Of a stretch of DNA of 64,000 bases, positions 93 through 41,242 are shown one piece after another. The notes beneath the pieces are model-generated. The model was not told the origin of the DNA. It saw nothing but the letters and a program-made list of their open reading frames with translations, and made no database searches. Position numbers and translations under genes: made by a program. The stretch covers positions 1,612,001 through 1,676,000 of the forward strand of contig OZ005703.1 of NCBI GenBank assembly GCA_963930775.1. Reading direction: 5' to 3'. The first letter of the stretch is position 1; every line of letters starts with the position of its first letter. Source of the DNA: Cliona cf. orientalis. Taxonomy: Eukaryota > Porifera > Demospongiae > Clionaida > Clionaidae.

Positions 93-3914
<3,822 letters not shown>

Positions 3915-4313
3915 TGCTGTTTATCACACTTGATCAACTTACAACAACAAACTGGTTTGCAGCGAGGTGGACGCTTGTTTATCACACTTTGCTATCACAG
4001 GCTATGTGGAAATTGCGGCTCAAAAATTTCGCAACTGCAAGGGCCAGTCCAATTGTAGTCTGTAGAGCCGGAAATTCAGTCTTGGCTCAATACAGCACTC
4101 GCGTCCCACCTCTGTCGCTGAGCTTGCAGCCCGCGCGACCACGCCTCCAAACATGATGATGGATTCTAGGAAATTAATGTACTTTGGCATGCACCGCCCC
4201 GCCCCTATAATCACAGCAGGCGCTGTACTTTTATACCTTGCCATAGATCGAGCTATATAGATCAAGAGAGGTGCTATATATATTTGAACAGCAGCAAAAT
4301 TCAGAAAGAGAAG
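3915..4313. promoter_or_regulatory. Head-to-head intergenic region, GPCR / EH gene
   Basis: A 399-bp gap separates the divergent start codons of the GPCR (3914, minus) and the EH-domain gene (4314, plus). Both promoters must lie here or overlap. No coding sequence is evident. Stretches such as CTATATATATTT near 4274 are TATA-like, but AT-rich runs are common in this genome, so no specific element is claimed. Confidence 0.5.
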
Positions 4314-20629: not shown

Positions 20630-22720
20630 CTAGCTGTTTAATAATTGCGATAATCTGAGGTGTGCTAAGAAGAGGTTTAGAGCTGAACCCTGTGACCTTA
20701 CATCCAGGCAGACTGGATCCTTTGGAGCTCCACTGCACTCCACAGGATAATCCAGACAACAGCTACCCTCCGTGTTATTGTCCGTCTCAAATGCATGACA
20801 CCCGGCATAGCACCAACAGTAGCCACCACCTGGAATCGCTTGTGCCTCCATTTTGTTGCACATGCCTCTACATGTGATGTTTTGATAGCCCACACAGTGG
20901 TCTGCGTAGTCGAGGCAACAGTCGAGGTACTTTGCGCAGTCCGAGTCACAATAGCACACGCCCCCGTGCTCAAGTAATATTGGATCCTTTGAGTTGCATT
21001 TCCCAGCACATGTGGCCGTGCTGCCAAAAAACGGCCTCTTTATTCCAACAGTGTAGCCATTATTCAATTCAGTACAGGAGTGGTCCGAGCGGTTATAGCT
21101 CCAGTTCCAGCAGTTCACATTAGGCACAGAGCATTGATTCTTGCAGTAGAGATACTTGGAGCATTGTGGATTCTTGTGGCACTTCTCTCTACAGTTATCT
21201 TCAGAATTCATCTTCCCCTCCCAAATTTGTGTGTTTGCGGTACCCGGAATGGAGTGGCACAATAGTTGGGCATTGATGAAGAAATAGCCAGGATCTGGTG
21301 GAATAATCTGCTCGGTGAGGGGAACATTCTCTCCCCACCACCAGTGAAACTTTGGGAATGTGGCATTAGCAGTTGGAGGTTGCACTCCAGTAGTGCAGTC
21401 ATCTTTTACGTTTTGAAATGGTGGCCAGACTGCAGATTTGTTCCATGCAGCATCGCTAGTCTTCTCAATTAGATTCATAATTGCATGAAAAGTAGCATTT
21501 GGTAGACTTCCATTTTCGTGCAGTAACTCGGTGAAGTAGCCAAGGTGAAGCATAAAGATACCACTGAAAGAGTACCAGTCCCCTCCAGGATCTTGATTAT
21601 ACCCACATGAACCTTGTGATTGGTAAGTCTGATATCCTCGAGGCTCATCGATAAGTATACCTTCTTTGGTGGTGTAGTTTGTAAGAATAGCGTCCATCCC
21701 ACGCAGTCCAATGTTGAGGTATGTCTTATCTCCAGTTCGTCTATAAAGGTATGCCGAAGAGCTCATCAGAAGGCCTTGGTTATAGGATGTTCCTGGAATT
21801 TTGGAGTTATGGCACTTCAGGTACCAGTCGGAAGTTGTGGCGTTACAACAGCCAATTGGAATGGCTCCAGTCGATACCAGATACTTGTCGCTCATGAGCC
21901 CGTAGCCATCGTCAAAACTGAAGAACCAGTCCCAAATCTTCCGTGCATCGTCCAGGTACTGTGACTGGTTCGGAAACATATAAGCCAGCTTGGAAGAAAG
22001 ATGCAAAAGCTCTACTATTGTGATGGAGTCTTTGTACATGTTGGTTCCACAACTCATCCAAACCACTCCACCACACGGCTCTGGCCATCCATACTTCCAT
22101 ATCCAATCATACAGCTCTTTGCAGTGACCCAACCAAATAGCATCCTAAGGTAAAATAAAAAAAAATTATTATTGCACACACAGTCATTAATAATAAAATT
22201 AATATATTAAGCATGCACTAACAATCTCACATACCCCAAGCCATTCGTAGAAGCGAAGATAGGCAATTGCATACCAGACAAAATCATCAACATAAGTGCA
22301 GAGATCAGTTCCGTCAAAATTTTTATTGTACGGTGAGTGTGGATATATTTTGCTGGCAAGGTCTGAGTTATTCCTTGTCTTCATGTAGATACCATAGGTA
22401 GCTACGGACTCCATGACTAGCGCGTCCCACCATCGATAACAGTTGGTGCACCAGGATGGCTTTTCGCAGCTGCACTGCGCATTATTTTGACCACCAATAC
22501 CACCAATCTGTCCACATGCAAAGAAAAATTGAATTCCTTTTGCCTTTGGGTCGTTCTTCCAGAAGTAGTGAAATAGACCATTCAATGTCAGCTGAGCTCG
22601 AGTTGCAGCATCAGCAGTTGTGGACTTGGATTTGAAATTGGCTTGATCCACAGAGCTACAGGAATGCGACAATACCAGAAGAAGAGTTACGGTGATAGAA
22701 AAGATGATCGATACTTCCAT
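20630..22720 (-). CDS. GH76-PAN-SMB-SMB secreted protein, copy A
   Basis: Two exons, 22720-22235 and 22144-20630, with a 90-bp phase-0 intron; 666 aa. A signal peptide (MEVSIIFSITVTLLLVLSHS) leads into a GH76-type (alpha-1,6-mannanase family) catalytic domain. It has NCYRWWDAL, the paired aspartates VDDFVW (145-146), CGGVVWMSC, TSYNQGLLM and FSGIFMLHL. Next is a cysteine-bearing PAN/apple-like region (NCREKCHKNPQCSKYLY ... CWNWSYNRS). Two SMB domains follow, each with eight cysteines: CAGKC...CYCDSDC...DCCLDYADHC, then CRGMC...CWCYAGC...SCCLDYPVEC. The protein ends with the shared RSQGSALNLFLAHL tail. The N-terminal half has several N-glycosylation sequons. Copy A is the most divergent around the active-site stretch (YAIAYLRFYEWLG). 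It is divergently arranged with copy B. Confidence 0.9.
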
Positions 22721-22965
22721 GACTACAGCTGTTTTATCTCACTCTACGTATAATATGTTTCACCAGCATTATTATACTGTGAAGTCCTATGAAAATTCAC
22801 TGCATGAACTATGAATTTCATGCAGAAGGAGCATGTGCCATGAGTGGGCAGTAACTCATGTGATCAGCTAGCTGGTACATGCTTGTCCTAGGAACCGGAA
22901 TCGGACTGAGAAAATGGGTGGGGCTGATGCTGCATGTGCACACGCTATTGGCCCACAATCCAGCC
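22721..22965. promoter_or_regulatory. Divergent promoter region of GH76 copies A and B
   Basis: 245 bp separate the start codons of copy A (22720, minus) and copy B (22966, plus), the only divergent pair in the cluster. The reading frame of B is open further upstream to 22879. I chose 22966 because it puts a classic signal peptide (MKRLSVYLVLLAFLSEAL) at the N-terminus. Confidence 0.5.
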
Positions 22966-25038
22966 ATGAAGAGGCTCAGTGTGTATCTCGTTCTCCTTGC
23001 TTTTCTATCAGAAGCTTTGATTTCCAGGGCAGATGAAGCAGAAAAGTTCAAATCATTGGACACTAACGCCTCAACGCGAGTCGAACAGACGCTAAACGGT
23101 CTATTCCACTACTACTGGAGGAATGACCTCTATGATAAGAAGATCCAGTTTTTCTTCGCGTGTGGCCAGATCGGAGGAGGAACTAGCGGCACAGACTACG
23201 GAAAATGTGGCTGTGCAAATCCCAGTTCGTGCATTTCTTGCTTCCGTTGGTGGGATGCAGTGGCCATGGAGTCTGTGGCAACCTATGGCATCTACAGAGA
23301 CACTAGGAACCACTCCGAAGTACCCGGCATCATCTTTGCCCACTCTCCGTACAATGCTGACTGGAATGCCACTGCTACTTGTACCTTTATCGATGATTTT
23401 TCATGGTACGGAATAGCATACCTCCGGGTCTATGAGTGGTTACAGGTATGTGTGTCTGTGTGTGTGCATGCATGCGTAATCCTCTAGTTAGTTTGAATTT
23501 TATCACACAAACCCATGACTAAGTCTTAATAATTGAACTGTCCTATCTTATTGTAGAATCCTATATGGCTGAATCGCTCCATTGCTTTGTTGGACTGGGC
23601 CTGGAAGTATGGCTGGGATGAACCTTGCGGTGGATTCTTTTGGAGCAACTGTGAATTTTCACTTTATAAGGATGCCATTACGGTAGTTGAGGTGCTTCAT
23701 CTCTCTGCAAAGCTGGCATTCTTATTCCCCAATGAGTCAGTCTACCTCCAGCGTGCTGAGCGAATCTGGGAGTGGCTTTTTACTTTCGACGATGGACACG
23801 GTCTATTATCCGAAGAATACTTGGTTTCTACTGGAGCTGTGCCTGAAAGGTGTTGCAATAACACAATCACCGATATGTACACCAAGTGTCACAACACCAG
23901 AGTCGCGGGGACCTCCTATAATCAAGGCGTATTAATGAGTGCTTCGGCCTATCTCTACAGACGCACAGGAGAACTCAAATATCTCAACGTTGGTTTGCGT
24001 GCAATCGATGCGATTATTGCTAACTATACCACGAAGGAGGGTGTTCTTATTGACGAACCTCGTGGAGTTCCTATGTACACTGTAGGGTATTGTTATGGCT
24101 ATGCAGACCCAGGAGGAGACTGGTATTCTTTCAACGGTATTTTCATGCTCCATCTTAGCTATTTCACCGAGTTACTTTACGAAAACGGAAGTCTACCAAA
24201 TTCAACGTTAGATAAGATTAGGACTCTAGTTGAGAAGACCAGTGATGCAGCATGGAATGGATCGGCTGTTTGGCCGACTTCCTTTCATAATGTCAGTGAT
24301 GCTTGCAACGATGATGGCCAGCCAAAGTTTAATCCAAAAATCACTTATCCCAAGTTTCACTGGTGGTGGGGTCAAAACGTGACTGAACAAATAACTATAC
24401 CTGACCCGAGATACTTTTACCACAAGAGTAATCTTCGCTGTCATAGCATAGGAAACGACACTCAGATGTGGGAGGGAGAATTAACTTCCGAGCTGGAATG
24501 CACTGATAAGTGTCGAAAGGAACCACTCTGTTCCAAGTACCTGTTCTCCGTCTACGAAGATGTACCAGGCATAAACTGTTGGTTGTGGAGTTACAATCGA
24601 TCGAGCCATGTTTGCCATCAGCAAAGCTACGACTTCAGTGTGGGAATAAAGAGACCAATTGGTGACGCTACATGCGCTGGTCGGTGTGGCTCGAGGGAGC
24701 CACAGAAACTCGAATTAGGCGGAGTCTGCTACTGCGATTCAAGCTGTGCTGCCCATTTGGACTGCTGCGTGGACTACGCTGAACAATGCCTGCCGAACAA
24801 GATCAACACGTGCAAGGGAATGTGCAAAAAGATGATGGCTCAAGCAGTACCTGGAGGGGGCTATTGCTGGTGCTATGATGTGTCTTACTACAGTACCGAT
24901 GGGTGGTGCCCGGATATTGGTACTGAGTGTCTGGGCATGCCGTCAATGCCTGTGTGTTTGGATGGAAGGTCACAGGGTTCAGCTTTAAATCTATTCCTGG
25001 CACACTTGAAACTATCACAAATCTTTAATGAAAAGTAA
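22966..25038 (+). CDS. GH76-PAN-SMB-SMB secreted protein, copy B
   Basis: Two exons, 22966-23445 and 23557-25038, phase-0 intron of 111 bp; 653 aa. It is the only copy on the plus strand. The signal peptide is 1-20. The GH76 domain is about 30-440: FRWWDAVAMES, catalytic-type DD at 143-144 in FIDDFSWYG, CGGFFW at 184-189, SYNQG at 280-284, FNGIFMLHL, FHWWWGQ. The PAN-like region is about 454-528. SMB1 (533-571) has all eight cysteines in the canonical spacing C-x3-C-x13-C-x-C-x3-C-x5-CC-x6-C. SMB2 (579-618) keeps only six: the fifth cysteine and one of the CC pair are missing (CWCYDVSYYSTDGWCPDIGTEC). The same loss is found in copy C, its tail-to-tail neighbour. Confidence 0.9.
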
Positions 25039-25539
25039 AAAATTAATAATTGTAATCGATGTGTGATGTGTATAAAATTATAATGTAATTTGAGAAAATA
25101 AGATCTCAAATTTAAGGTCAAGAATCAGATGATAATGCACAATAGTGGAATAAGCACAATTCCAAATATGCATGTCAGTAGAGATCATGCATACTTTTCA
25201 TTTATTACCCATTCTAGTGGATATAATGCTTGAATAAATTCATTTAGACATGTAGGCAACTGTCACCAGGCTGACTATAATATTATTATCAGTTAAGAAA
25301 AATCTAAAGACAATCCTTTTAATAGGCTGCCATGTAGAGGAATATTAAATTTTTGACACTGTACACATGTAAGTACAAGTGGGCAGAACCTCACATGATC
25401 TGATCATGAGAGTTCAGTGGAGAGTATATAATCAGCTCATGAATTTTAATAATTCATTGTCTTTCTTTAAATAATAATATCAATGCGATTTTGCACTGTT
25501 CTTTCATTGATTGACAAATTAATAATTAAAAAAAACTAA
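25039..25539. other. Convergent gap between GH76 copies B and C
   Basis: 501 bp of AT-rich sequence between two stop codons in tail-to-tail orientation. It holds both 3' UTRs. No further gene or clear element is seen. Confidence 0.5.
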
Positions 25540-27563
25540 TTAGACATTAATTTTGTTATAAATTTCTGACAGCTTCAGATGTGCAAGGAAGAGGTTCAGT
25601 GCTGACCCCTGTGACCTTGCATCTAAACATGTTGGTGTCTTCACACCCAAACACTGCATGGGAAAGTCCGGGCACCAAGTATCGCCGTAGATATCCGTGT
25701 CAAAACACCAACAGTAGCCCCCTCCGGGCACTGGTAACGCCTCAACCTTCTTGCATATCCCACGACAGGTGTTGATCCTTTCCGGCAAACAGTGATCGGC
25801 GTAATCAAGGCAACAGTCTAAGTGTTTAGTACAGTTTGAATCGCAGTAGCAGACTCCACCTAATTCAAGTGTACGTGGTTCCTCTGAGCCACACTGACCT
25901 GCACAAGAAGCACTGCCAATGGGTCTTTTAACGCCTACACTGAAGGCACCGTCAGAAAGATTGCAAGCGTGATCGGAACGATTGTAGCTCCAAATCCAGC
26001 AATCTGTGTTTCCTTCAGCACCATTAGCAGCGTACAGGTATTTAGAACACCGTGGATCTTCTCGGCACTTGACGGTGCAGTGGAGTTCTGAACCTGCGTG
26101 CCCCTCCCAGAGTTGGGTGTCGTTTGCTCCTAGAGTATAGCAGCGGAGGTGGTTTTTATGGAAGAAGTGATGAGGATCTGGTGGAGTGATCTGCTCAGGC
26201 ACATTTTGACTCCACCACCAGTGAAATTTAGGATAGGTGATGTTTGCATTCAGTTTTGGTCCGCCAAGGTTGCATGCATCCCCAATCTTCCCGAAAGAAG
26301 ATGGCCAAACGGCAGATTTGTTCCACGCAGAATCACTGGATTTCTCGATTAGAGTCATGATTTTGTCCAAAGTTGCATTAGGGAGGCTTCCATTTTCGTA
26401 CAATAGTTCAGCAAAGTAGCTTAGATGGAGCATAAAGACACCGTTAAATGAGTACCAGTCTCCTCCCGGGTCCCCTTCTGACCAACACTGTCCTATATAG
26501 GTCTGGTATCCTCGCGGTTCATCGACAATAATGCCCTCTTTGGTGGTATAGTTGGCGAAAATGGCATCCAATGCACGTAGTCCAACTTTAAGGTACATTT
26601 GGTCCCCAGTTCGCCTATAGAGGTAGGCAGCAGCACTCATAAGTACACCTTGGTTGTAGGAGGTTCCTGCAATCTTCGTATTGTGACATTTATTGTACAA
26701 ATCCGTGACTGTGTTGTTGCAACACATTTCAGGCACTGCTCCCGTAGAAACTAAGTACGACTCAGTCATCAGGCCCTGTCCATCATCGAAAGAGAAGATC
26801 CAGTTCCAAATTCTCTCAGCACGCTCTAGATAGATTGAGTTGTTGGGAAACATGTATGCCAGTTTAGAGGCCAGGTGAAGCACCTCTAACATTGTGATGG
26901 AGTCCTTGTATAAACCGTAATCGCAGGTTGTCCACCAGAATCCACCACAAGGCTCATCCCAGCCATACTCAAAGGCCCAATCCAGTAGCGCAATTGAACG
27001 ATTCAGCCATATAGGATTCTATGAAGCAGAGTATACAATAGATCACAAGACTATACATTAATTTTTTAACCATATTATGCTTGCACCTTTAGCCATTCGT
27101 AGACTCGGAGGTATGCTATTCCATACCATGAAAAATCGTCGATAAAGGTACAAGTGACAGTGGCATTCCAGTCAGCATTGTACGGAGAGTGGGCATAGAT
27201 GATGCTGGCTATTTCAGAATGGTTCTTTGTCTTCGAGTAGATTCCGTAATTCGCCACAGACTCCAGAGCCACTGCGTCCCACCACCGATAGCAGTAGAGA
27301 CACACCCTGGGGTCATTACAGCTGCAAGATCCATAACTCCCAGTTCCACCTCCTCCAATCTGGCCACATGAGAAGAAGAATTGGATATGCTTTCTCTGGG
27401 GATCATTTCTCCAGAAGTAGTGGAATAGACCATTCAGTGTCTGGTCAACTCGAGTATAGACATCGGTGCTGGTGGATTTTAGATCTCTATTTGCATCTTT
27501 TGCCAAGGAAATGGCCACCACTATTGCAAGAAAGCCAACAACTAAGAGGAGAAACGACTTCAT
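25540..27563 (-). CDS. GH76-PAN-SMB-SMB secreted protein, copy C
   Basis: Two exons, 27563-27087 and 27018-25540, intron of only 68 bp (donor GTGCAA, weak); 651 aa. The start is placed at 27563, where MKSFLLLVVGFLAIVVAI forms a signal peptide, although the frame is open upstream to 27704. The GH76 motifs are intact: YCYRWWDAV, FIDDFSWYG with DD at 142-143, CGGFWWT, TSYNQGVLM, FNGVFMLHL. SMB1 has eight cysteines. SMB2 has only six (CWCFDTDIYGDTWCPDFPMQC), as in copy B. It ends with the common RSQGSALNLFLAHLKLSE tail. A full palindromic CRE lies 48 bp upstream of the start codon. Confidence 0.9.
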
Positions 27564-27610
27564 CACGATGCAGCTCCAGCATAGTAGTACAATGCATGCA
27601 ATTGCAATGA

Positions 27611-27618
27611 TGACGTCA
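27611..27618. promoter_or_regulatory. CRE palindrome TGACGTCA upstream of GH76 copy C
   Basis: A perfect TGACGTCA about 48 bases upstream of the proposed start codon of copy C. In animals this site binds CREB/ATF factors when close to a transcription start. Function here is inferred from position only. Confidence 0.45.
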
Positions 27619-27739
27619 TCGAACAACTGCAGCCCCACCCCTCCGCGAATTTTTTTTGCGCAATCAGTGCAAAAGTAATTAGATTGAGTGCACAATTCAC
27701 ACACAAAAAAAATCTTTATACAGACAATTGATTATCCTT

Positions 27740-30557
27740 TTACTTCATTATCTGTGCCAGCTTCAGATGAGCCAGAAACAGGTTGAAAGCAGATCCCTGT
27801 GACCTTGCATCCAAGCAGGGTGGCATCTGGACTTTCGGACTGCATTCTATCGGATAATCGATGCAGCAGCTTCCGTCACTATTGTTGTCCGTCATCCACG
27901 GATTACAGCCATCATTGCAGACGCAGTAGCCACCTCCAGGGAGAGGCTGTGGGTCAACCTTACCACACTGTCCTTTACACGAGGGGATCTTGCCAGCTAG
28001 ACACTCGTTGCCATAGTCCATGCAGCAGTCGAAATGTTTGGCACAGTCGGAATCGCAGTAGCAGATTCCTTCGTTGACTTTCTGAGGCTCCTTTGATCCG
28101 CACTTGCCGGCACATGTGACCTCTCCTATTGGCCTCTTCAGCCCGACCCTCCATCCGTACTGACTTATAGAGCAGTTATGGTCGGAGCGATTATAGCCAA
28201 AATTCCAGCAGTTAATATTGGCGACTTCCCCGTCGGTATTGAAAAGGTACTTTGAACAGAGTGGATTTTCACGACACTTGACGGTACATTCGAGTTCAGA
28301 GGCCACCGTTCCTTCCCAGATCTGACTGCTGGTAAGGGACGAGCATCGAAGACTGAGTTCGTGCAAGAAGAGGCGGGGATCTGGAGCTGTGATCTGCTGA
28401 GTGACATTCTGACCCCACCACCAGTGGAATTTGGGATAGGTGATATTCGGTCCAAATTTGGTAACGTCATTGTTGCAAATATCGTCAGCTTTCTTGAAAG
28501 GTGGCCAGAGAGCTGACCTATTCCACGCTGCGTCACTGGTCGCATTGATCAGAGAGGCTATGCCAGCTAAAGTTGCTTTGGGCAGGTTCTCGTCTTCGTG
28601 AAGCAAATCCAAAAAGTAGCTGAGATGCAGCATGAAGATGCCATTAAACGAGTACCAGTCTCCTCCTGGGTCTTGTCCTGCTATACACTCACCTCCCTGG
28701 TATGACTGATAAGATCGTGGCTCATCGACAAGAACGCCATCTTTGGTGGTATAATTCATGAGTATTGCATCCACAGCTCGTACCCCAATGTCAAGATACT
28801 TCTTATCTTTCGTACGCAGGTAGAGGTACGCTGCTGAGCTTATCAGTATTCCTTGGTTGTATGAAGTACCAGATACCCTTGTGTTGTAACACTTAGTGGT
28901 GGAACCAGCAGATGTAGCATTACAGCACCTCTCAGGAACTGCTCCGGTGGATACCAGAAACTTGTCGCTCATGAGTCCGTAGCCCCCATCAAAGGCAAAG
29001 AGCCAGTTCCAAAGCTTAACTGCACGATCGAGGATGTCCGGCTCTTCTGGAAACATGTAGGCGAGCTTGGAGGAGAAGTGTAGGGCCTCCATGTTGGTGA
29101 TGGAGTCCTTGAACATCACCCAGCCGCAGTTGCTCCACCAGAATCCACCGCAGTCCTTGTGCCACCCGTTGTCCCATACCCAGTCAAATAACTTACGGGA
29201 ACGAAGCAGCCACTTTGGATCCTGTATCCAGGACAAAATAGGGCAATAGTGTATGCTTATAATAATTATGGGGTCAAGTGGCATAAGTTATATAAACGGC
29301 CCCCAAATTTTTGCGTGCTATTGTGACAGGGTTTTAGGTAGTCTATCGAGCTAGACCCTTCCTTGCGCTTGTATTGTACGCACGGGGGGAAGGGTCTAGC
29401 AAAGGTCACGTTTGGAATGCAATTAATTAAAACGCAGAAAACTTGAGCAGCAAAATAATGACAATGGCAAAGTTGGCAGCTCTTCGCTGGTACAGAGAAC
29501 TTCTCAATGATCGCCGAAATATACAGAGGTAGCGAGTAGAAGGCGCTCCGCTTGTCTGACCTGGCTGGGACAGTGATCAAACACGGCACTATCAAGTTGA
29601 ACGGACTCTTTCGCTCCCGTTTCAATGATCGACTATTCCCTGGCAGCTCTCAAAAAATGGCGACGAACGGTTTTCTGAATCGTCCGCTATTGCCTCTGTA
29701 GTACTAGTACTCCAGTGCCACGCAAATGATCCAGGCGAAGGCAACAGCTAGCTCGCTATCGCGAATAAGCACTGATTGCGAGCATCACCCACGAATAAAT
29801 TGCTATCCAGAATTTGGATAGTTGAATCTGATTGGTCAGCTGAAATTCAATTAAATGTGACCTTTACTAGACCCTTCCCCCTGTGCGTACAATACAAGCG
29901 CAAGGAAGGGTCTAGCTCGATAGACTAGGTTTTAGGTCACCGGTATCTTCTATGGTTGAAAACTTTCGCGGGCCATTTTTGCCACTTGATCCTAATTATG
30001 TATTAGTGATGTATGATATTGAATATGTTATGGATGAAGCTCTTCATGCATAAAGTAATACATACCTTGAGCCAGTCATAGACTCGGAGATATGCTAGAC
30101 CATACCACGAAAAGTCATCAATCCAAATGCAAGCAGACTGTGCATCCCAGTTAGCATTGTATGGGGAGTGGGCGAACATGATATCGGCCACTTCGGAGTT
30201 ATTGGTGGTGTTGGCGTAGATTCCATAAGTTGCCAGTGATTCCAGCGTGATAGCATCGTACCAGCGATAGCAGTTGACGCACGAGTCGGGATTTCCGCAG
30301 GTGCACTGGTATAGGTTGCCCAAGCCGCCATTTCCACCCACCTGGGCACAGGAAAAGAAGAATTTGATGTTCTCGTGATCTTTCGCGGGGTCACTTCGAT
30401 AGTAGTAGTGGAACAGTCCCTGTAGCGCTTGCTCAGTCCGAGTGGAAGCATCAGTGCAAGTCGACCTGATATTAGTGCACTCGGCTGCGGAGTTCAGCGA
30501 AGGCCCTAGTAGCAGAGCAGCCAGAGCGAGAGAGATCACCGCGGCCAAGTTCATCAT
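27740..30557 (-). CDS. GH76-PAN-SMB-SMB secreted protein, copy D
   Basis: Two exons, 30557-30066 and 29221-27740; 657 aa from the MMNLAAVISLALAALLL signal peptide (665 aa if an upstream in-frame Met at 30581 is used). The intron position and phase 0 match the other copies, but this intron is 844 bp because it contains a 585-bp inverted-repeat element. The exons are paired with confidence because copy E ends just upstream at 30669 and no other first exon is free. The GH76 core is complete (WIDDFSWYG with DD at 147-148, CGGFWWSNC, TSYNQGILI, FNGIFMLHL). It is followed by a PAN-like region and two full eight-cysteine SMB domains. The SMB2 insert reads NPWMTDNNSDGSCC, shared with copies E and F. 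Confidence 0.88.
29341..29925. mobile_element. 585-bp non-autonomous element with ~68-bp inverted ends, TA flanks
   Basis: The left terminus GTCTATCGAGCTAGACCC... is repeated inverted at the right end (...GGGTCTAGCTCGATAGAC) over about 68 bases, with few mismatches. The ends are flanked by TA at 29339-29340 and 29926-29927. The interior has no recognisable transposase. TA duplication suggests a Tc1/mariner-type or related mover. It sits inside the intron of GH76 copy D. Confidence 0.8.
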
Positions 30558-30594
30558 GGAGCTGCCCGGGCGGGAGGTCACGCTTAGTAATTAT

Positions 30595-30605
30595 TGCGCA
30601 TGCGC
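30595..30605. promoter_or_regulatory. NRF1-like palindrome TGCGCATGCGC, GH76 copy D
   Basis: An exact TGCGCATGCGC 38-48 bases upstream of the chosen start codon of copy D. It matches the NRF1 consensus core found in many animal promoters. The same 11-mer precedes copy E. Confidence 0.5.
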
Positions 30606-30668
30606 GTTATGATCAGATAACACACAAATAAGTTATGACAAACATTGTTCATAATAATTCACTCCACA

Positions 30669-32702
30669 CTAATTTCCACCTGCTATTTGCGCAAGTTTTA
30701 AGTGTGCCAGGAACAAGTTGAGGGCTGACCCCTGTGACCTTGCATCCAGACAAGTGGGCATTTTTATATATTCGCACCGCTCGGGATAGTCAGGGCAACA
30801 GCTCCCATCACTGTTATTGTCGGTCATCCACGGATTACAGCCTTCTAAACACCAGCAATAGCCCCCTCCATGAACAGGGTGGGGATAGACGTCACCACAG
30901 TGCCCCTTACATGAGGGAGGTTTACCAGCTAAGCAGTGATCGGCATAGTCCAGGCAGCAGTCGAGATGTTTAGCACAGTCGGCATCGCAGTAGCAGAGTC
31001 CATGATCAAGTTTCTGAGGCTCTTTAGAACCACATCGGCCGGCGCAAGTAGCTTTACCTACAGGCCTCTTGACTCCAACCTTCCAATAATCAGTAAGGTT
31101 ACAAGCATGGTCATTACGGTTGTAGTTCCAAAGCCAGCAGTTGGTACCAGCGTAAGTTTGATCCGGATCAAAGAGGTAGGAGGAACACAGCGGATTATCA
31201 GCACACTTCTTTATACAAGCGATTTCTGTTTTTACCTGCCCCTCCCAGAGCTGACTATCACCATATGTGTAACAGCGTAGTCCAGTCCTGTGAAAGAATT
31301 GTCGTGGATCTGGAGGAGTATGCTGTTGGACCACTTTTTTGCCCCACCACCAGTGGAATTTAGGGTAGGTAATGTTGCTGCTCAGTTTGGGGATACCGAT
31401 ATCGCAAGCATCTTCACTTTGGTTGAAAGGTGGCCACACAGCGGATCTATTCCACGCTGCATCGCTGGTCTTCTTAATGAGGGTCATGACTCCGTTATAA
31501 GTATCAGTCGGTAAGCTTCCATTTTTGTGCAGTAGTTCAGTGAAGTAGCCAAGGTGCAGCATAAAGATGCCATTGAATGAGTACCAGTCCCCTCCTGGGT
31601 CCTGACCAGAATAGCACTCATACTGATATGACTGATAAGAACGTGGCTCATCAATAAGCACGCCTTCTTTGGTAGTATAATTCTTTAGAATAGCCTCCAC
31701 CGCACGTAGTCCAACTTCGAGATAAGTAGTGTTTCCCGTTCGTAGATAGAGGTTTGCCGAAGAGCTTATCAGCAGTCCTTGGTTGTAAGCCGTTCCAGAC
31801 ACTTTTGAATTGTGGCACCTCGTGGACGGATTTGCTGACGTTGCGTTACAGCACCTCTCAGGAACTGCTCCAGTGGAAACCAAATATTTGTTGCTCATGA
31901 GTCCATAGCCATTGTCGAAACTAAAGAACCAGTCCCAAACAAGTTGTGCACGCTCTAGGTAGCGTGGCTCATCTGGAAACATGTTGGCCAGTTTGGAGGA
32001 GAAATGCATCATTTCTACGATCGTGATAGAGTCTTTGAACAAGTTTGCATCGCAGTTGGTCCACCAGAATCCACCACAGGGCTCGTCCCAGGCGTACTCC
32101 CACACCCAGTCAAATAGTGCCACAGAGCGATTCAGCCACTTCGGATCCTGTGGAAATATACGCGTTAGTCAATAATTCTTTTTCCTATAATTAAGCTCTT
32201 ATCTAGTGGGTACCTTCAGCCACTCGTAGACGCGGAGGTAGGCTATTCCATACCATGAAAAATCGTCCATGAATGTGCAGTCAGCTGTAGCATTCCAATC
32301 TGCATTGTATGGAGAGTGACCATACGTAACATCGGCCACATGTGCATTCGCTCTGGTCTTCATATAGATCCCGTAAGTAGCCACGGATTCAAGTGTAACT
32401 CCGTCATACCAGCGATAGCAGCTGACGCACGAACTGGGCGTGTCTCCACACGTGCAGGAGCCGTTGAAGTCGGGATCTCCTATTTGTCCACACACTATGA
32501 AAAATCTCACTTTTGGGTGTTTATGTGGCTGGGCATCGCTCAACCAGAAGTAGTGAAGTAATCCTTGCAGCGTTTGCTCTGCTCGAGTAGAGGCGTGGGT
32601 GTCCGTGGATTTGATGTCACTGGCGTCGTCTATGCTGGCATCTATTGAATTTGAAGACAAAAGTGGCCCAAAGAAGATCAGGAGAACGATGTAACACTTC
32701 AT
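30669..32702 (-). CDS. GH76-PAN-SMB-SMB secreted protein, copy E
   Basis: Two exons, 32702-32214 and 32147-30669, intron of 66 bp; 655 aa. The signal peptide is MKCYIVLLIFFGPLLSS. GH76 signatures are SCYRWYDGVTLES (Tyr in place of the second Trp, also seen in copy D), FMDDFSWYG (DD at 146-147), CGGFWWTNC, TAYNQGLLI and FNGIFMLHL. The PAN-like region contains NCWLWNYNRND. Both SMB domains have eight cysteines (CAGRC...CYCDADC...DCCLDYADHC and CKGHC...CWCLEGC...SCCPDYPERC). Only 87-111 bp separate its stop from the start of copy D, so the D promoter overlaps the end of E. Confidence 0.9.
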
Positions 32703-32790
32703 CTTCTAGCTTGGCAAGTTGATCAACAATTCATTATCATGATAATAATATTCATGGTCATGTGAAGCGACCACGGACAGGACGTGTGAG

Positions 32791-32801
32791 TGCGCATGCG
32801 C
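32791..32801. promoter_or_regulatory. NRF1-like palindrome TGCGCATGCGC, GH76 copy E
   Basis: The same 11-base palindrome as upstream of copy D, 89 bases upstream of the start codon of copy E and within the 137-bp gap to copy F. Confidence 0.5.
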
Positions 32802-32839
32802 ATAAGATTTGCAGTATTATGTAACAATACAAGTATTCA

Positions 32840-34888
32840 TCAGTTTTTGCTAGTTATTTGTGCCACCTTCAAATGCGCAATAAACAAGTTCAAAGCTGAT
32901 CCCTGCGACCTTGCATCAAGGCAGGTGGGCATCTCCACGGATAGGCACTGTTCAGGATAATCCGTGCAACAGCTCCCATCACTATTATTATCTGTCATCC
33001 ACGGATTACATCCGGCGAAACACCAACAGTAGCCTCCTCCTGGGATGGCCTGAGCTTCCACCTTTGTACACTTTCCCTTACAGGAAACTGTCCTATTATC
33101 TGCGAGGCAATTATCGGCATAGTCCAGGCAACAATCCATGTGTGTGGCGCACAGTGAGTCACAGTAGCAAACTCCTCCAGTATCCAACTCCTGAGGCTCT
33201 TTTGAGCCGCATTTCCCAGCACATGTAGCATGAATGGGCGGCCGCTTGACACCAAGGTACCATTTATCTGCATACTGGTGGCAGGAGTGGTCTGAGCGAT
33301 TGTAGCTCCACAACCAGCAATTGAGTCCAGGTACGGCACCGTTGTCGTTGTAAAGGTACTTGGAGCAGTCGCGATTCTCGTGGCACTTTGTCTTGCAGGC
33401 CTCTTCGGAGGCTGTCAGTCCTTCCCAGAGCTGAGCATCTGCTATGCCGACAGAGTGACAGCGGATGAAGGAATTGTGAAAGAAACGTTGCGGATCTGGT
33501 GGAATTATCTGTTGAGTGACCTTTTGATCCCACCACCAGTGGAACTTGGGGTATTTCGTTATGTTTGGATTCAGTTTGGGGGCACCATAATTACAACTGT
33601 CTGCTACCATTGAGTTCTTAAACGGTGGCCACACAGCTGATCTGCTCCATGCTGCATCGCTGGTCTTCTCTATCAATGTGTTGATGCGCTGTAGGGTGGC
33701 ACTTGGTAAGCTTTCATTCTCGTACAGTAGATCTGCAAAGTAGCCAAGGTGTAGCATGAAGATGCCATTAAAGGAGTACCAATCTCCTCCCGGATCCTGA
33801 CCAGCAAGACACTCAGAACCTTGGTATGTTTGGTAAGATCGTGGTTCGTCGATAAGAATACCTTCTTTGGTGGTGTAGTTCATAACGATGGCATCCACTG
33901 CACGAAGACCAATGTTGAGATATATCTTATCTCCAGTCCTCCTGTAGAGGTATGCAGATGCACTCATCAGAAGGCCTTGATTGTAAGAGGTTCCCGAGAC
34001 TTTGGAATTGTGACACTTTAAGTAGCTGTTTTCAGTCGTGGCATTGCAACATCCGACAGGAATTGCTCCGGTGGACACCAGATACTTGTCGCTCATGAGC
34101 CCATAGCCATCGTCAAAACTGAAAACCCAGTTCCAGATTTTCTGAGCTTGTTGAAGAAATCTCGACTCATTGGGAAGTAAGAAGGCCAACTTGGAAGAGA
34201 GGTGAAGCATTTCAACATTTGTAATTGAGTCTTTGAACGTTTGACTGCCGCAGTTCATCCAAACAAATCCACCACATGGCTCCTTCCAGCCGTACTCCCA
34301 CACCCAGTCATGCAATTCTACAGAGCGATTCAACCATTTTATATCCTGAAGTAAGTAAAGGTAGGGAGTAATAATTATAAGCATGCAGCAATGCCAATTA
34401 TGTTAACTTTATACCTTGAGCCATTCATAAACTCGGAGGTATGCTATTCCATACCAGGCAAAATCATCGATAAATGTGCAATATTTGCTTGCAGGCCAGT
34501 TGGAATTGTATGGTGAATGGGCAAAGATTGTATCGGCTATTTTTGAGTAGTTAGTTGAATTTGTATAGATACCGTACGTTGCCACAGACTCCATAGCAAT
34601 GGCATCCCACCATCGATAGCAGGCCGTGCATGAGACAGAGTTCTCACACGTGCACGCCTGACCTTCATCAGCTCCACCAATCTGACCACAAGCAAAGAAG
34701 AACTCTATTTGTTTCACTTTAGCATCCTGCCTCCAGTAGTAGTGAAACAGACCCTGCATTGTCTGTTCAGCACGAGAGTTAGCTTCAGTGACTGTAGGTT
34801 CGACCCGCTTTGTAGCAGCACCAAAGACATGGCCATGCATCACAGCGATGGCAAAAAGGAGAATATAATTGAACACAAAATGATTCAT
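32840..34888 (-). CDS. GH76-PAN-SMB-SMB secreted protein, copy F
   Basis: Two exons, 34888-34415 and 34345-32840, intron of 69 bp; 659 aa from MNHFVFNYILLFAIAVM (an in-frame upstream Met at 34939 would place 17 polar residues before the signal peptide and is less likely). GH76 core: ACYRWWDAIAMES, FIDDFAWYG (DD at 141-142), CGGFVWMNC, TSYNQGLLM, FNGIFMLHL, FHWWWDQKV. PAN-like region: ACKTKCHENRDCSKYLY ... CWLWSYNRSDHSC. SMB1 and SMB2 have eight cysteines each. It closely resembles copy A in segments such as NSKVSGTSYNQGLLMSAS and in the VGCCNATT region, which suggests a closer relationship of A and F. Confidence 0.9.
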
Positions 34889-35235
34889 TCTCTCAATGCC
34901 TGCTGGCGAGTTAATTTGTATGGCTATACTGAATGGCAATGGTTATTAAATAATCCACATGAGCACAATAATTATGGAGTATATGCCTCATATGGAAAGG
35001 TCATTTGGATGACTGATATTGTGTGTCAAATCATACCATAGGCCATAAGAGGGTAAAATACAACAATAAGGTTTAGCTATGAAATAGTAATTCTAGACAA
35101 TGGTAAAATAATTCATAGTCAAGAGAACACTCAGTCATTGCAAGGTTGTACCAACATTAATAAAATTACATTGTATTCATCACCTACTACTAGATACACT
35201 TGTACAATTAGAGCAGCAATATCAAATTGTAGTAT
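34889..35235. other. Intergenic gap between GH76 copies F and G
   Basis: 347 bp of AT-rich sequence upstream of copy F and downstream of copy G. No coding segment or repeat is recognised. Confidence 0.5.
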
Positions 35236-37796
35236 TCAGTTCATAGTCAGCTTTGACAGCTTCAAATGTGCAAGAAACAGATTCAAAGCTGACCCTTGTG
35301 ACCTTGCATCCAAACAAACAGGCATTGGAAATTCCATACACTCTGGAGGGTAGTCGGGGCAACAGCTCCCATCGCTGTTGTTATCAGTGAACCATCCATT
35401 ACAGCCGTCAAAACACCAGCAATAGCCGCCTCCATACAAAGGCTGGGGGGTCAAGGTACCACATAGTCCTTTGCACGAATGAATTGTAATCGATGAACAA
35501 TGGTCGGCATAATCTAAACAGCAGTCCATGTGCTTGGCACAGTCCGAATCGCAGTAGCACACACCGTGCTCCACATTCAAAGGCTCTTTGGAGCCACAAC
35601 GACCGGCACAGGTGACATTTCCGACAGGGCGCTTTATGCCTATGGTGTAAGTTTCATCGTTCAGTGTACATGAGTGATCGGAACGGTTGAAGCTCCACAG
35701 CCAGCAGTTTACCTTAGCCTTGGCCAGCTGTGATACTTTGCCATGGTACTGGTATTTGGAACATCGTGGATTATCTCGACATTTTCTCTCACAGCCGTTC
35801 TCAGTGAGAACAAATCCTTTCCATAGCTGGCTGTTGTTGCCAGTACAGCCAAGCTTCCTTCGACGAAAGAAGAATTTCGGATCTGGAGGAATAATTTGCT
35901 TGGTGACGTTCTCATTCCACCACCAGTGGAATTTGGGGTAGCTATCAGTTGGACCAACTGTAGCTGTCCCAATATTACACCCATCATAATAACTGAAGGG
36001 TGGCCAGACCGCTGACTTATTCCATGCAGCATCGCTAGATTTTTCGATCAATGTCATGATTTTTGCTAACATTGAATCAGGTAAGCTTCCATTCTCGTGC
36101 AGCAACTCGGTGAAGTAGCCAAGGTGCAGCATGAAGATGCCATTGAAGGAGTACCAGTCTCCTCCTGGGTCTGATCCAGCCCAACAACTCCCTTCATACG
36201 ACTGATAAGATCGTGGTTCATCAACAAGAACGCCTTCTTTGGTTGTGTAGTTGGTAAGAATAGCGTCCAATGCTTGTAGGCCAACATTGAGGTAGGTTTT
36301 ATTGCCAGTTCGCAGGTATAGATATGCTGAAGCACTCATCAAGAGCCCTTGATTATAGGAGGTCCCCGATAATTTGGAGTTGTGGCATTTCTTGTGCAGA
36401 TCGGAAGATGAAGCATTGCAGCACTTCTCGGGGATTGCTCCAGTGGATACTAGACCGTTCTTACTCATAAGCCCTTGTCCATCATCAAAGCTATAGAACC
36501 AATCCCATACCTGTTGAGTACGCTCCAGGTATTGTGACTCATTCGGAAACATATAGGCCAACTTAGCAGAGAGATGAAGAACCTCGAGTATTGTGATGGA
36601 GTCCTTAAACATGGAGGTATCACAGTTGGTCCACCAGAATCCACCACAAGGTTCATCCCAGCCATACTCCCAGGCCCAGTCCAGTAGTGCAATGGAGCGA
36701 TTTAGCCATTTGGGATCCTAAGGAGGGAACATATAATATTTCTGTTGTGTTTCAAATCTTTTTACTTTGGTACCGAGTTATTATCCCTGTATCAACTAGC
36801 CTCCCAGGATATGTGACCTGCTATGAGAAAAGGGACCATTCATGTTATATAGTATGACTCGAAACAAGATCAATTTTTGTAATGACAATGTCCAACTTGC
36901 TTTCTACAAATGTAGTAGTGAGTCAGCGTATCGACATCAACAGCGGATACACGTATACAGAATATACATTATACTCTATGCATACTAGTACAAGCTACAT
37001 ACGACAAACACGAAGTCCCAAATGGCCCCTTTTCTCACAGTTTGTCACATATGGCTATGTATCAACTAAAATAAATGTGGCTATGCAGTAGAACCACTTG
37101 GCTGGTACGTACACCCCTATGGATATAGTACTGTAACACCCCTTAATCTAGGGCCCCAGGCTGCTACAATTAATATGGACACTTCATCGATCACAATACT
37201 AAGCATTTTATAGCTCTTCCAATGAAATAGCTTTAAGTTTAATTCTGATACATGTGCATGCACAGGTAATAATACAGTACTTACAAACATACCTTCAGCC
37301 ACTCATAGACTCGGAGGTATGCTATTCCGTACCATGAAAAATCGTCAATAAAGGTACAGACGACAGTGGCATTCCAGTCAGCATTGTATGGGGAGTGAGA
37401 AAAAATCACGTCAGCAGCTTTGGAAAAGTTCTTTGAGTTTGTATAGATACCGTACGTTGCTATTGACTCCAGTGCGATGGCATCCCACCACCGATAGCAA
37501 TTCACGCACGAGTTTGGGCGATTACAGCTACATTCATACTCAGAGTGTGGCTTACCCCAGCCACCGATTTGGCCGCAGACAAAGAAGAATTCTATCGGTT
37601 TCTTTAGAGGGTCGCTCTTCCAGTAGTAGTGGAACAGACCTTGAAGTGCTTGCTCGGCACGAGATTTTGGGTCAGCAGTGTTACGTACATCAAGGCTACG
37701 ACCCAGAGAACCATAGCTTCCTGTTGTTGCTTTGACGTGACAGGATAGCGGAAATACTACTATTAAAGCAACACTTATAATTAGCACAAACTTCAT
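35236..37796 (-). CDS. GH76-PAN-SMB-SMB secreted protein, copy G
   Basis: Two exons, 37796-37293 and 36717-35236; 661 aa from the signal peptide MKFVLIISVALIVVFPLSC (an upstream Met at 37811 would add five residues). The intron is 575 bp and contains an inverted-repeat element of about 244 bp. GH76 core: NCYRWWDAIALES, FIDDFSWYG (DD at 151-152), CGGFWWTNC, TSYNQGLLM, FNGIFMLHL, FHWWWNENV. The PAN-like region carries a slightly longer insert before CWLWSFNRSDHSC. Both SMB domains have eight cysteines (CAGRC...CYCDSDC...DCCLDYADHC; CKGLC...CWCFDGC...SCCPDYPPEC). It is the outermost cluster member, divergent from MED8. Confidence 0.9.
36809..37052. mobile_element. ~244-bp inverted-repeat element in intron of GH76 copy G
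   Basis: The left end ATATGTGACCTGCTATGAGA... and the reverse complement of the right end (ATATGTGACAAACTGTGAGA...) match over about 30 bases, including a shared GAGAAAAGGG. There is no coding capacity. Exact ends and target duplication could not be fixed. Confidence 0.65.
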
Positions 37797-39903: not shown

Positions 39904-41121
39904 CTAGTTGCATAATCCTTCGACAATTCCATTCAGTTTCTCAGCAAAAGCTCGGAAAGAGAAATTTGCCATGATGTGTTCGCGTCCCGAGAGACCCATC
40001 TCCATGCTAGAGCCACGGTTTCTAAAGAGAAACACCATCTTTGCAGCAAACGCCTCAGCGGTCGGTTCGCAAAGGAATCCCGTCTTCCCATCGACTACGG
40101 TCTCCAGGGGACCTCCGCTATTCACAGCCACAATGGGACGTCGGGAGTACATCCCCTCCAGGGGGCATATGCCAAAATGTTCGTTTGAGGGGGTATAGAT
40201 TAGTGCACGACAGCACTCCAGTAGGGCGGCCTTTTGTTCGTCGCTACATGAGCGAAGAAAGGTGACCTTGTCATTCACTTTTAGCGACTCGGCTAGCTGA
40301 CGTAGCTCAAGGTAGTGTTCCTTATTCTCAACAACTCGTTCATCATAGCCACCAACCATTGCGAGATGGACTTGGGAGCGCTCAGTGGGTTTAAGTTGGT
40401 CAAGCGTTTTGGCAAATGCTTCAATGGCCAGATTGAGGTTTTTCTTTCTCTCGTAGCGATTGATTGAGAGGAACACGCACTTTACTGACGGAGGGAACAT
40501 GTTGCTTAGCTCAGCAGGTTTCTGGGAAAACGAAGAGAAATTTAGCGACGGGTATAAAACGGTAGGCTGGACGTGTGAGAGCGTCTTAAACGTTTGATGA
40601 AAGATCGTTGAAGTGAATTTGCTATTGACCAGGACCTGGTGGGCCCGACCAGTTGTATATTCTTCCAGTTTGTCAATTGGCCATCGGTATACCTTTTTAA
40701 GCCAGTTGGTCCGCTGTGTCAAGAGTTGATCGGGAAAATGGCAGTAGAAGATCACCTTTGCACGAGTCCACCTCAGCACGGGGATACATGCAGATATCTG
40801 GTCGCAAATTATAACATCAAATCGGTCCGCTGAATCTCCGAAATAATTGCGAGAAAGCAGAAAGAAAGCCACGTATAACATTCGAAGGTAGGCAAATAAA
40901 GCGTAGCCCTTGTTGCAGCAGGATCGCGGTAGCCAGTCTCCAACGCACGTCACTTTCAGGGTGCCATCCCTAGTTTGTTCGAAAGCGTGTCCTGGATCGT
41001 GGTGAGCTGTGAATATCTCGACATGGTGACCCTTTGTCTTCAGCGCAATGGCTGCGTCAACGATGAGGCGTTCTGCACCACCAATTCCCAAATCTGGGTG
41101 AACAAAAGCGATTCGAACCAT
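39904..41121 (-). CDS. ALG2: ALG2, alpha-1,3/1,6-mannosyltransferase
   Basis: A single exon of 405 aa. ALG2 is a GT4 glycosyltransferase at the cytosolic face of the ER that adds the second and third mannoses to the dolichol-linked oligosaccharide for N-glycosylation. Visible signatures are the N-terminal FVHPDLGIGGAERLIVDAA, the hydrophobic YLRMLYVAFFLL, YCHFPDQLLTQR, LFLSINRYERKKNL-type sequence (VFLSINRYERKKNLNLAIEA), and the C-terminal GT4 donor-binding motif EHFGICPLEGM followed by PIVAVNSGGPLETV. Length and motif order fit animal ALG2 closely. It shares a short bidirectional promoter with TTC33. Confidence 0.96.
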   Translation of the reverse strand: MVRIAFVHPDLGIGGAERLIVDAAIALKTKGHHVEIFTAHHDPGHAFEQTRDGTLKVTCVGDWLPRSCCNKGYALFAYLRMLYVAFFLLSRNYFGDSADRFDVIICDQISACIPVLRWTRAKVIFYCHFPDQLLTQRTNWLKKVYRWPIDKLEEYTTGRAHQVLVNSKFTSTIFHQTFKTLSHVQPTVLYPSLNFSSFSQKPAELSNMFPPSVKCVFLSINRYERKKNLNLAIEAFAKTLDQLKPTERSQVHLAMVGGYDERVVENKEHYLELRQLAESLKVNDKVTFLRSCSDEQKAALLECCRALIYTPSNEHFGICPLEGMYSRRPIVAVNSGGPLETVVDGKTGFLCEPTAEAFAAKMVFLFRNRGSSMEMGLSGREHIMANFSFRAFAEKLNGIVEGLCN

Positions 41122-41242
41122 GTCTCTCCCCCTTTTTGCGCATGTGGCAGGTACTTACTCTATTTAGAGCGCACCAAAAATTGAACGTCGAACGGATCCA
41201 GAACGAGACATATCACTCGTTTTCGTTCCGTTCCGTAAGGCA
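41122..41242. promoter_or_regulatory. Bidirectional promoter ALG2 / TTC33
   Basis: Only 121 bp separate the ALG2 start codon (41121, minus) and the TTC33 start codon (41243, plus), so one small region must drive both. A CRE overlaps the TTC33 start codon (separate entry). Confidence 0.6.

Follow-up and report, generated by a model that had tools for sequence, protein, structure and literature searches.

A demosponge gene array encoding predicted secreted GH76 proteins with a PAN-SMB-SMB cassette placed inside the barrel

GH76 is generally regarded as belonging to fungi and bacteria. An expanded, intron-bearing array of such genes in a demosponge, with animal adhesion modules nested in the encoded barrel, would clearly exemplify how an animal can rebuild an enzyme of microbial type. 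Does a cluster of seven genes on a contig of Cliona cf. orientalis represent such a case, how are its proteins built and what might they do? The window analyzed comprised a stretch of 64,000 nucleotides, to which all coordinates below refer.

Gene array and predicted secretion

The cluster at 20630-37796 had originally been predicted to contain seven complete genes for secreted proteins sharing a phase-0 intron, and this was confirmed by reading frames, splice sites and hydropathy. All frames (A-G) are open down to a stop codon, and the two exons of each gene are separated by a single GT-AG intron of 66-844 bp, which lies in phase 0 at the same codon boundary in all seven; the encoded proteins comprise 651-666 aa. 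The start codon was our choice where the exon 1 frame holds several Met (e.g., gene B). Gene A (20630..22720, minus strand, 666 aa) consists of exon 1 at 22720-22235, an intron at 22234-22145 (90 bp) and exon 2 at 22144-20630. Gene B (22966..25038, 653 aa) is an inverted copy and the only one on the plus strand, with exon 1 at 22966-23445, the intron at 23446-23556 (111 bp) and exon 2 at 23557-25038. The remaining five genes are again located on the minus strand: gene C (25540..27563, 651 aa; exon 1 27563-27087, intron 27086-27019 of 68 bp, exon 2 27018-25540), gene D (27740..30557, 657 aa; exon 1 30557-30066, intron 30065-29222 of 844 bp, exon 2 29221-27740), gene E (30669..32702, 655 aa; exon 1 32702-32214, intron 32213-32148 of 66 bp, exon 2 32147-30669), gene F (32840..34888, 659 aa; exon 1 34888-34415, intron 34414-34346 of 69 bp, exon 2 34345-32840) and gene G (35236..37796, 661 aa; exon 1 37796-37293, intron 37292-36718 of 575 bp, exon 2 36717-35236). 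An inverted-repeat element is present at 29339-29927 inside the gene D intron.

Each protein carries an N-terminal hydrophobic segment (maximum 11-residue Kyte-Doolittle mean 2.4-3.5), and no further strongly hydrophobic 19-residue window was found beyond residue 30 in any of the seven (maximum 0.87-1.56). As judged by hydropathy, the products of A-G are predicted to be secreted.

According to the accessible text of PMC12295086, GH76 is mainly fungal and bacterial, which raises the suspicion of contaminating microbial or fungal DNA or of an assembly artefact. This explanation is extremely unlikely and was rejected: introns occur in seven of seven genes, the GC content resembles that of the flanks, and animal-like genes (class C GPCR, kinesin, Tctex-1) flank the array on both sides. 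In addition, the PAN and SMB domains share an exon with most of the GH76 domain, the catalytic dyad being encoded in exon 1. The copies are mutually 55-69% identical and are thus not assembly duplicates; the proposed expanded family was borne out as seven divergent copies in one array. Across the 217-Mb genome, which was read exon by exon so that counts are lower bounds, the Pfam models for GH76 and SMB (E ≤ 0.001) matched at these seven genes only, as did exon 1 and exon 2 of gene G (E ≤ 1) and the gene E cassette (E ≤ 10).

The GH76 barrel and the nested cassette

Pfam PF03663 matched all six full-length models scanned (A, B and D-G; E 2e-19 to 2e-24) and exceeded the cut-off in all seven exon 2 frames (E 1e-17 to 3e-21), and a profile made from 84 prokaryotic GH76 domains and CtGH76 matched the seven proteins with E values of 1e-30 to 2e-36. 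For gene E, AlphaFold2 predicts an (alpha/alpha)6 barrel, and GH76-type structures fill its 31 best Foldseek rows; this model, obtained from 10 rows of sponge sequences only and with 22 residues read from the intron in the query, has a mean pLDDT of 48.5 and a pTM of 0.54 and deserves moderate confidence in its core only. An NCBIfam scan of two proteins yielded one chance-level match, for one of the two. By family model, DD motif and a barrel complete to helix 12, all seven proteins belong to GH76. Consequently, the predicted GH76-type catalytic domain stands, with a significant PF03663 match and, for gene E, a predicted barrel where the lack of both would have spoken against it.

The order of the domains turned out to differ from the expected one. 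The Pfam GH76 match stops at profile position 295-316 of 366, giving the impression of a linear layout in which a barrel without its last helix precedes PAN-SMB-SMB and a conserved tail unrelated to it. However, this tail, DARSQGSALNLFLAHLKL, is the best match to the GH76 helix-12 block in all seven proteins, and in each of them none of 20,000 shuffles reached its score. AlphaFold2 furthermore places a helix at the gene E tail, and the structural alignment (VIA-align, reporting the first and last aligned residues only) pairs this helix with the barrel end. As most of the non-GH76 structures, other helical barrels ranked below the 25, also align through to the gene E tail, the structural pairing indicates a barrel-closing helix rather than GH76 as such, and the link to GH76 is provided by the helix-12 sequence test. 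This test identifies the tail as helix 12, the last one in the (alpha/alpha)6 barrel of GH76, which places PAN-SMB-SMB between helices 11 and 12; at the sequence level the barrel is thus complete but interrupted, running from helices 1-11 through the cassette to helix 12. Both the linear GH76-PAN-SMB-SMB order, which we regard as very unlikely, and a tail peptide unrelated to GH76 were rejected. Hence the originally predicted domains are all present but their linear order was wrong.

The cassette, composed of a linker, PAN/apple, SMB1 and SMB2, comprises 204-218 aa and expands the helix-11/12 region to 279-292 residues compared to 76 in CtGH76; no insert between these helices was found in any of the 84 prokaryotic relatives examined. 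Cassette and helix-12 tail are located at 21358-20705 and 20704-20633 in gene A, 24346-24960 and 24961-25035 in gene B (plus strand), 26235-25624 and 25623-25543 in gene C, 28438-27812 and 27811-27743 in gene D, 31367-30747 and 30746-30672 in gene E, 33553-32918 and 32917-32843 in gene F, and 35940-35311 and 35310-35239 in gene G (all except B on the minus strand).

The PAN assignment is the weakest of the domain calls. When the segments (A 21032-21298, B 24400-24657, C 25921-26181, D 28130-28384, E 31062-31313, F 33239-33499 and G 35626..35886, the last on the minus strand) were scanned singly, a PAN-type model was the best Pfam match in all seven (E 7e-6 to 0.0037); in the long proteins a sub-threshold match appeared in gene E only. 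The curated cut-off was passed in five of seven, by C, D, E and G for PAN_1 and by F for PAN_2, so that the proposed PAN/apple-like region holds as the best model throughout but remains below cut-off in A and B. For the predicted gene E cassette fold, the best 50 of 228 Foldseek rows (E 0.004-0.24, none at E ≤ 0.001) are of a type that we take, in part by title, to be PAN/apple; the mean pLDDT of this model is 41 and its pTM 0.39, with only the PAN core near 70-79.

The two somatomedin-B domains were recovered as predicted, Pfam Somatomedin_B exceeding the cut-off in all seven proteins. The tandem SMB1-SMB2 pair, delimited in gene G by Pfam and Cys spacing (35311..35610, minus strand), occupies 20705-21010 in A, 24673-24960 in B, 25624-25905 in C, 27812-28114 in D, 30747-31046 in E and 32918-33223 in F. 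Pairs scanned alone matched the model in five of five cases (E 2e-12 for gene E). SMB1 shows the pattern C-x3-C-x12/13-C-x-C-x3-C-x5-CC-x6-C in all copies; SMB2 has eight Cys in five of them and six in B and C.

Active site and possible function

The Asp-Asp dyad, which performs retaining catalysis in known GH76 enzymes and aligns with D163/D164 of CtGH76, is kept in all seven proteins, whereas the Asp at subsite -2 (CtGH76 D268, CtDfg5 D250) is replaced by Thr in every one. This Asp is present in 84/84 prokaryotic relatives and was read from alignments in CtGH76, Lin0763, ShGH76 and Aman6. Likewise, the canyon Trp (CtGH76 Trp287), aromatic in all 84 relatives, is Thr in the seven sponge proteins; the Asp268 and Trp287 columns fall outside the pattern by which the relatives were selected. 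CtGH76 Lys353 corresponds to Asn in six sponge proteins and Ser in one, a comparison that, like those at Phe352 and Gly354, is partly circular since the selecting pattern covered these residues. CtGH76 W149 falls in a gap in all seven proteins and in 74 of the 84 prokaryotic rows. The ratio pN/pS is 0.28 in the GH76 part and 0.25-0.39 in the cassette domains, rough values given that 18 of 21 pairs are saturated at synonymous sites.

These sequence features argue for an active retaining glycosidase whose specificity has changed rather than for a plain alpha-1,6-mannanase, although the missing subsite -2 Asp could also signal inactivity. With the canyon presumably remodelled, a plain alpha-1,6-mannan chain is unlikely as substrate. 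The suggested digestion of mannan is weakened in its plain form by the two replacements.

On balance we lean towards secreted, disulfide-rich GH76 enzymes with a nested cassette and a remodelled canyon that process microbial mannose glycans. They would act as retaining glycosidases still handling mannose-containing glycans, in a canyon presumably recut by the two Thr replacements and by a longer Cys-bearing loop at the place of CtGH76 wing region 1. Of the two CtGH76 wings, only wing 1 lengthens the canyon according to the accessible text of PMC12295086, but wing 2, which lies in the helix-11/12 connection, does not. Judged from helix order, the cassette would enter at a loop into an inner helix on the face of the dyad. 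Held by the barrel at both ends, it may represent a docking or gating unit rather than a floppy C-terminal tail and might hold the enzyme, close to its canyon, against a protein or glycan surface. In view of the host's way of life, the most likely role would lie in feeding or defence, where the enzymes would process mannose-rich glycans from captured or sponge-associated microbes, with tandem duplication having probably supplied divergent copies held under purifying selection. A bolder version, in which a matrix or microbial ligand of the cassette mechanically opens or closes a canyon recut for a glycan new to GH76, making a cassette-controlled glycan-remodelling enzyme, appears rather unlikely.

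Alternatively, the proteins could be Dfg5-like transglycosidases that cleave GPI or other endogenous glycans of the sponge itself and transfer the product, for instance in fixing proteins to the extracellular matrix, with the cassette binding the matrix acceptor. We consider this improbable. The fungal transglycosidases Dfg5/Dcw1 are GPI- or membrane-anchored and CtDfg5 keeps the subsite -2 Asp (D250), as far as described in PMC12295086, whereas the sponge proteins have lost this Asp, end 5-9 residues past the helix-12 block and by hydropathy carry no C-terminal GPI-anchor signal. Moreover, CtDfg5 is matched only weakly at the sequence level (E 8.5e-4), does not appear in another search listing matches at E ≤ 1 and reaches 1.6e-29 only once bacterial rows are added to the profile. 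The replacements of Asp268, Trp287 and Lys353 would also suit binding-only pseudoenzymes, in which the barrel serves as a lectin-like scaffold displaying the cassette for microbe recognition, and a multicopy, divergent, secreted family with lectin-like PAN domains would fit recognition. Against this reading, to which we likewise assign a low probability, argue the catalytic Asp pair kept throughout, the low pN/pS of the GH76 part and the cassette domains showing no excess of amino acid change.

The preferred reading of active enzymes suggests that a microbial-type enzyme was rebuilt in an animal to act on a different sugar. From the altered subsites, a new specificity is to be expected. The array would offer a ready system for studying how a barrel tolerates an insert of more than 200 residues, whether such an insert controls catalysis and in what way sponges handle the mannose-rich surfaces of microbes.

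Known relatives and origin

SMB modules, tandem or single, are joined to the secreted animal hydrolases ENPP1-3 and ENDOU, where they lie outside the catalytic domain. The sponge proteins share this joining to a secreted hydrolase but carry SMB together with PAN nested in the barrel; ENPP1 and an endoribonuclease are weak matches to them (E 0.23-0.29).

CtGH76 of Chaetomium thermophilum (PDB 9R4K), a member of the Fungi/Bacteria-mixed subfamily, is 22-25% identical to the sponge proteins, has no such cassette and carries Asp268 and Trp287 where these have Thr. Membership in this subfamily mostly goes with >35% identity, CtGH76 being the one fungal member compared. A TLC assay described in the accessible text of PMC12295086 detected no alpha-1,6-mannanase activity for CtGH76, which leaves the substrate of this nearest solved relative unsettled as well. 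The bacterial alpha-1,6-mannanases (BcGH76/Aman6, ShGH76, Bt3792) described there share fold and dyad with the sponge proteins but carry the subsite -2 Asp (read for ShGH76 and Aman6) in place of Thr. The GH76 network reported in the same text contains 9876 fungal and 5450 bacterial members among 15,624 sequences.

Among papers on GH76 with sponge, invertebrate horizontal gene transfer or metazoan, none with an animal GH76 in its title was found. The accessible main text of PMC6011409, a survey of animal GH genes, does not mention GH76, and in that of PMC4784904, which treats prokaryotic genes of Amphimedon, glycosyl hydrolases are named but not GH76.

In a midpoint-rooted tree built from the sponge proteins, 84 prokaryotic domains and a fungal protein, the stem of the sponge clade measured 2.44 substitutions per site. 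Owing to this long stem, the rooting, the single fungal protein and a prokaryotic set chosen for likeness to the sponge proteins (best 80 of 98 relatives), the tree does not place the origin of the family. A scan with the exon 2 alignment confirmed as relatives 0 of 130 pattern matches in genome contigs and 0 of 121 in viral contigs, and as its patterns lie mostly outside the conserved GH76 motifs, it tells us only that it caught no close relative with a cassette. The best single pair with the prokaryotic set reached 29% identity. A search of plasmids returned four records with 26-29% identity, three of them annotated as GH76 and one without annotation.

Gene array and domain architecture

Confirming the original prediction of a seven-gene cluster, positions 20630 to 37796 of the window were found to hold seven complete genes (A-G), six on the minus strand and only gene B (22966-25038) on the plus strand. 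Each consists of two exons separated by a GT-AG intron of phase 0, which lies at the identical codon boundary throughout and measures 90, 111, 68, 844, 66, 69 and 575 bp in genes A to G, respectively. The encoded proteins of 651-666 residues share 55-69% pairwise identity, and every one carries an N-terminal hydrophobic stretch of the signal-peptide type, 11-14 N-glycosylation sequons and 34-40 cysteines. No family remnants were detected in the window outside these genes, as 70 of 70 tblastn pieces overlapped annotated exons. The intron of gene D consists mostly of a 589-bp element (29339-29927) with 75-bp inverted arms that are 96% identical, which looks like a short inverted-repeat transposon; another inverted pair of this general kind (84 bp, 91.7% identical) lies at 57612-57958.

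The GH76, somatomedin-B (SMB) and PAN domains proposed for these proteins were all supported, PAN least. A cassette of linker, PAN, SMB1 and SMB2 is nested between helices 11 and 12 of the GH76 barrel. SMB is a common module in animals, and the regular eight-cysteine spacing was present in SMB1 of all seven proteins and in SMB2 of five. The exceptions are B (SMB1-SMB2 at 24673-24960) and C (25624-25905), the closest pair at 69% identity, in which SMB2 carries a short deletion and lacks two cysteines, which the alignment identifies as the fifth and one member of the CC pair. Since the fifth cysteine reportedly partners the sixth in the vitronectin crystal structure, this loss would remove one bridge, consistent with one disulfide having been lost in the common ancestor of B and C.

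In full-length scans PAN was detected in protein E alone, weakly and under the cut-off. When the segments were scanned alone, a PAN-type model was the best Pfam match in all seven (E-values for A to G of 0.0037, 0.0013, 2e-5, 7.5e-6, 7e-6, 5e-5 and 5e-5), with C, D, E and G passing the PAN_1 cut-off, F that of PAN_2, and A and B neither. Among solved sequences, apple domains of microneme proteins came nearest to the PAN segment profile, at E-values of 0.0015 and 0.018. A structural model of the cassette (mean pLDDT 41; PAN core about 70-79) was nearest to the apple/PAN domains of HGF, plasminogen, factor XI and microneme proteins, with a best E-value of 0.004 and none at or below 0.001.

Active site and proposed activity

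Active-site residues were aligned on the Chaetomium thermophilum enzyme CtGH76 and compared with 84 prokaryotic relatives. The catalytic dyad D163 and D164 is present in all seven sponge proteins, as are W110, Y289, F352 and the C204-C279 pair; W111 is Trp in five and Tyr in two, the Y217 position is Tyr or Phe, and a partner of W149 is absent from the alignment. In contrast, D268, which contacts the 3- and 4-hydroxyls of the subsite -2 mannose (PMC12295086), is Asp in 84/84 relatives and Thr in 7/7 sponge proteins. Likewise, W287 is replaced by Thr in all seven and is aromatic in 84/84 relatives, and K353, Lys in 84/84, is Asn in six and Ser in one. The stretch from D268 to Y289 comprises 28 residues in every sponge protein, compared to 20 in CtGH76, where it contains wing region 1, and 14-23 (median 15) in the prokaryotic relatives; the sponge stretch also includes extra Cys.

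The proteins had been read as a rebuilt mannanase family. Because the dyad is kept and the canyon is changed, we class them as GH76 only: family membership holds, and the alpha-1,6-mannanase assignment is opposed by Thr at D268 and W287 in all copies. Judged from sequence, the dyad points to catalysis and the altered canyon to a different substrate. The best-supported reading of the observed anatomy, dyad, changed residues and constraint is that of a secreted GH76 enzyme, a retaining glycosidase whose substrates contain mannose but are not plain alpha-1,6-mannan. A Dfg5-like enzyme is a less likely alternative, and so, with about the same probability, is a lectin-like protein, a proposal that faces the retained dyad. 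For the secreted glycosidase, the cassette, anchored at both ends and probably beside the canyon, would dock or gate the enzyme, with a putative role of the enzyme in feeding or defence.

The GH76 fold and family are already known, and the literature passages on GH76 that were available contained no animal GH76, seven-copy array or nested PAN-SMB-SMB cassette. Other sponges may well have such nested-cassette proteins, as the eukaryotic sequence search covered this genome alone.

History and genomic distribution

Median pN/pS was 0.28 for GH76, 0.39 for PAN, 0.25 for SMB1, 0.32 for SMB2, 0.24 for the conserved C-terminal tail (barrel helix 12) and 0.80 for the signal peptide, with synonymous sites saturated in 18 of 21 whole-protein pairs, indicating old duplicates under purifying selection. 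Neighbours pair in the tree (B as sister of C, support 100; D with E, support 98), as tandem duplication plus one inversion would give. The family as a whole is far from everything found: best local identities to prokaryotic loci were at most 33%, the best aligned pair reached 29%, and the sponge stem measures 2.44 substitutions per site. Among the available excerpts, an oomycete secretome table gives a GH76 count of 1 in two columns (PMC4316629), and GH76 is recorded once for the cryptomonad Goniomonas avonlea (PMC6260743). The sponge GH76 may stem either from transfer or from patchy ancient inheritance.

Searches of the genome (217 Mb, 149 contigs), in which match counts are lower bounds, with the Pfam GH76 model, both exons of gene G and the cassette of gene E yielded matches confined to genes A-G. 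The Pfam SMB search (E 0.001, 74 candidates scored) likewise recovered only these genes; intron-split copies may escape it.

Host genome and neighbouring genes

On the mitochondrial contig (19,633 bp), TGA is read as Trp, the recognisable protein genes all lie on one strand, and 26 tRNAs were predicted with the contig taken as two halves. It carries an atp9-like gene (L024:9410-9646), the mitochondrial gene names here being our own assignments by reading. Mitochondrial atp9 and the TGA = Trp code are typical of demosponges. A cox1 gene with eight in-frame TGA codons scored equally on two contigs of the sponge assembly (G000:C111:18100-19440 and G000:C149:4234-5574), which may reflect an additional mitochondrial copy in the assembly or an insertion into the nuclear genome.

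The neighbours of the array are animal-like: a class C GPCR is encoded at 1011-3920, and further genes code for a kinesin motor and a Tctex-1 protein. Adjoining the array on the minus strand is a single-frame glycosyltransferase group 1 gene (39907-41154), in which Pfam detects glycosyltransferase domains only and which we take to resemble ALG2, an N-glycan mannosyltransferase; it is probably a chance neighbour.
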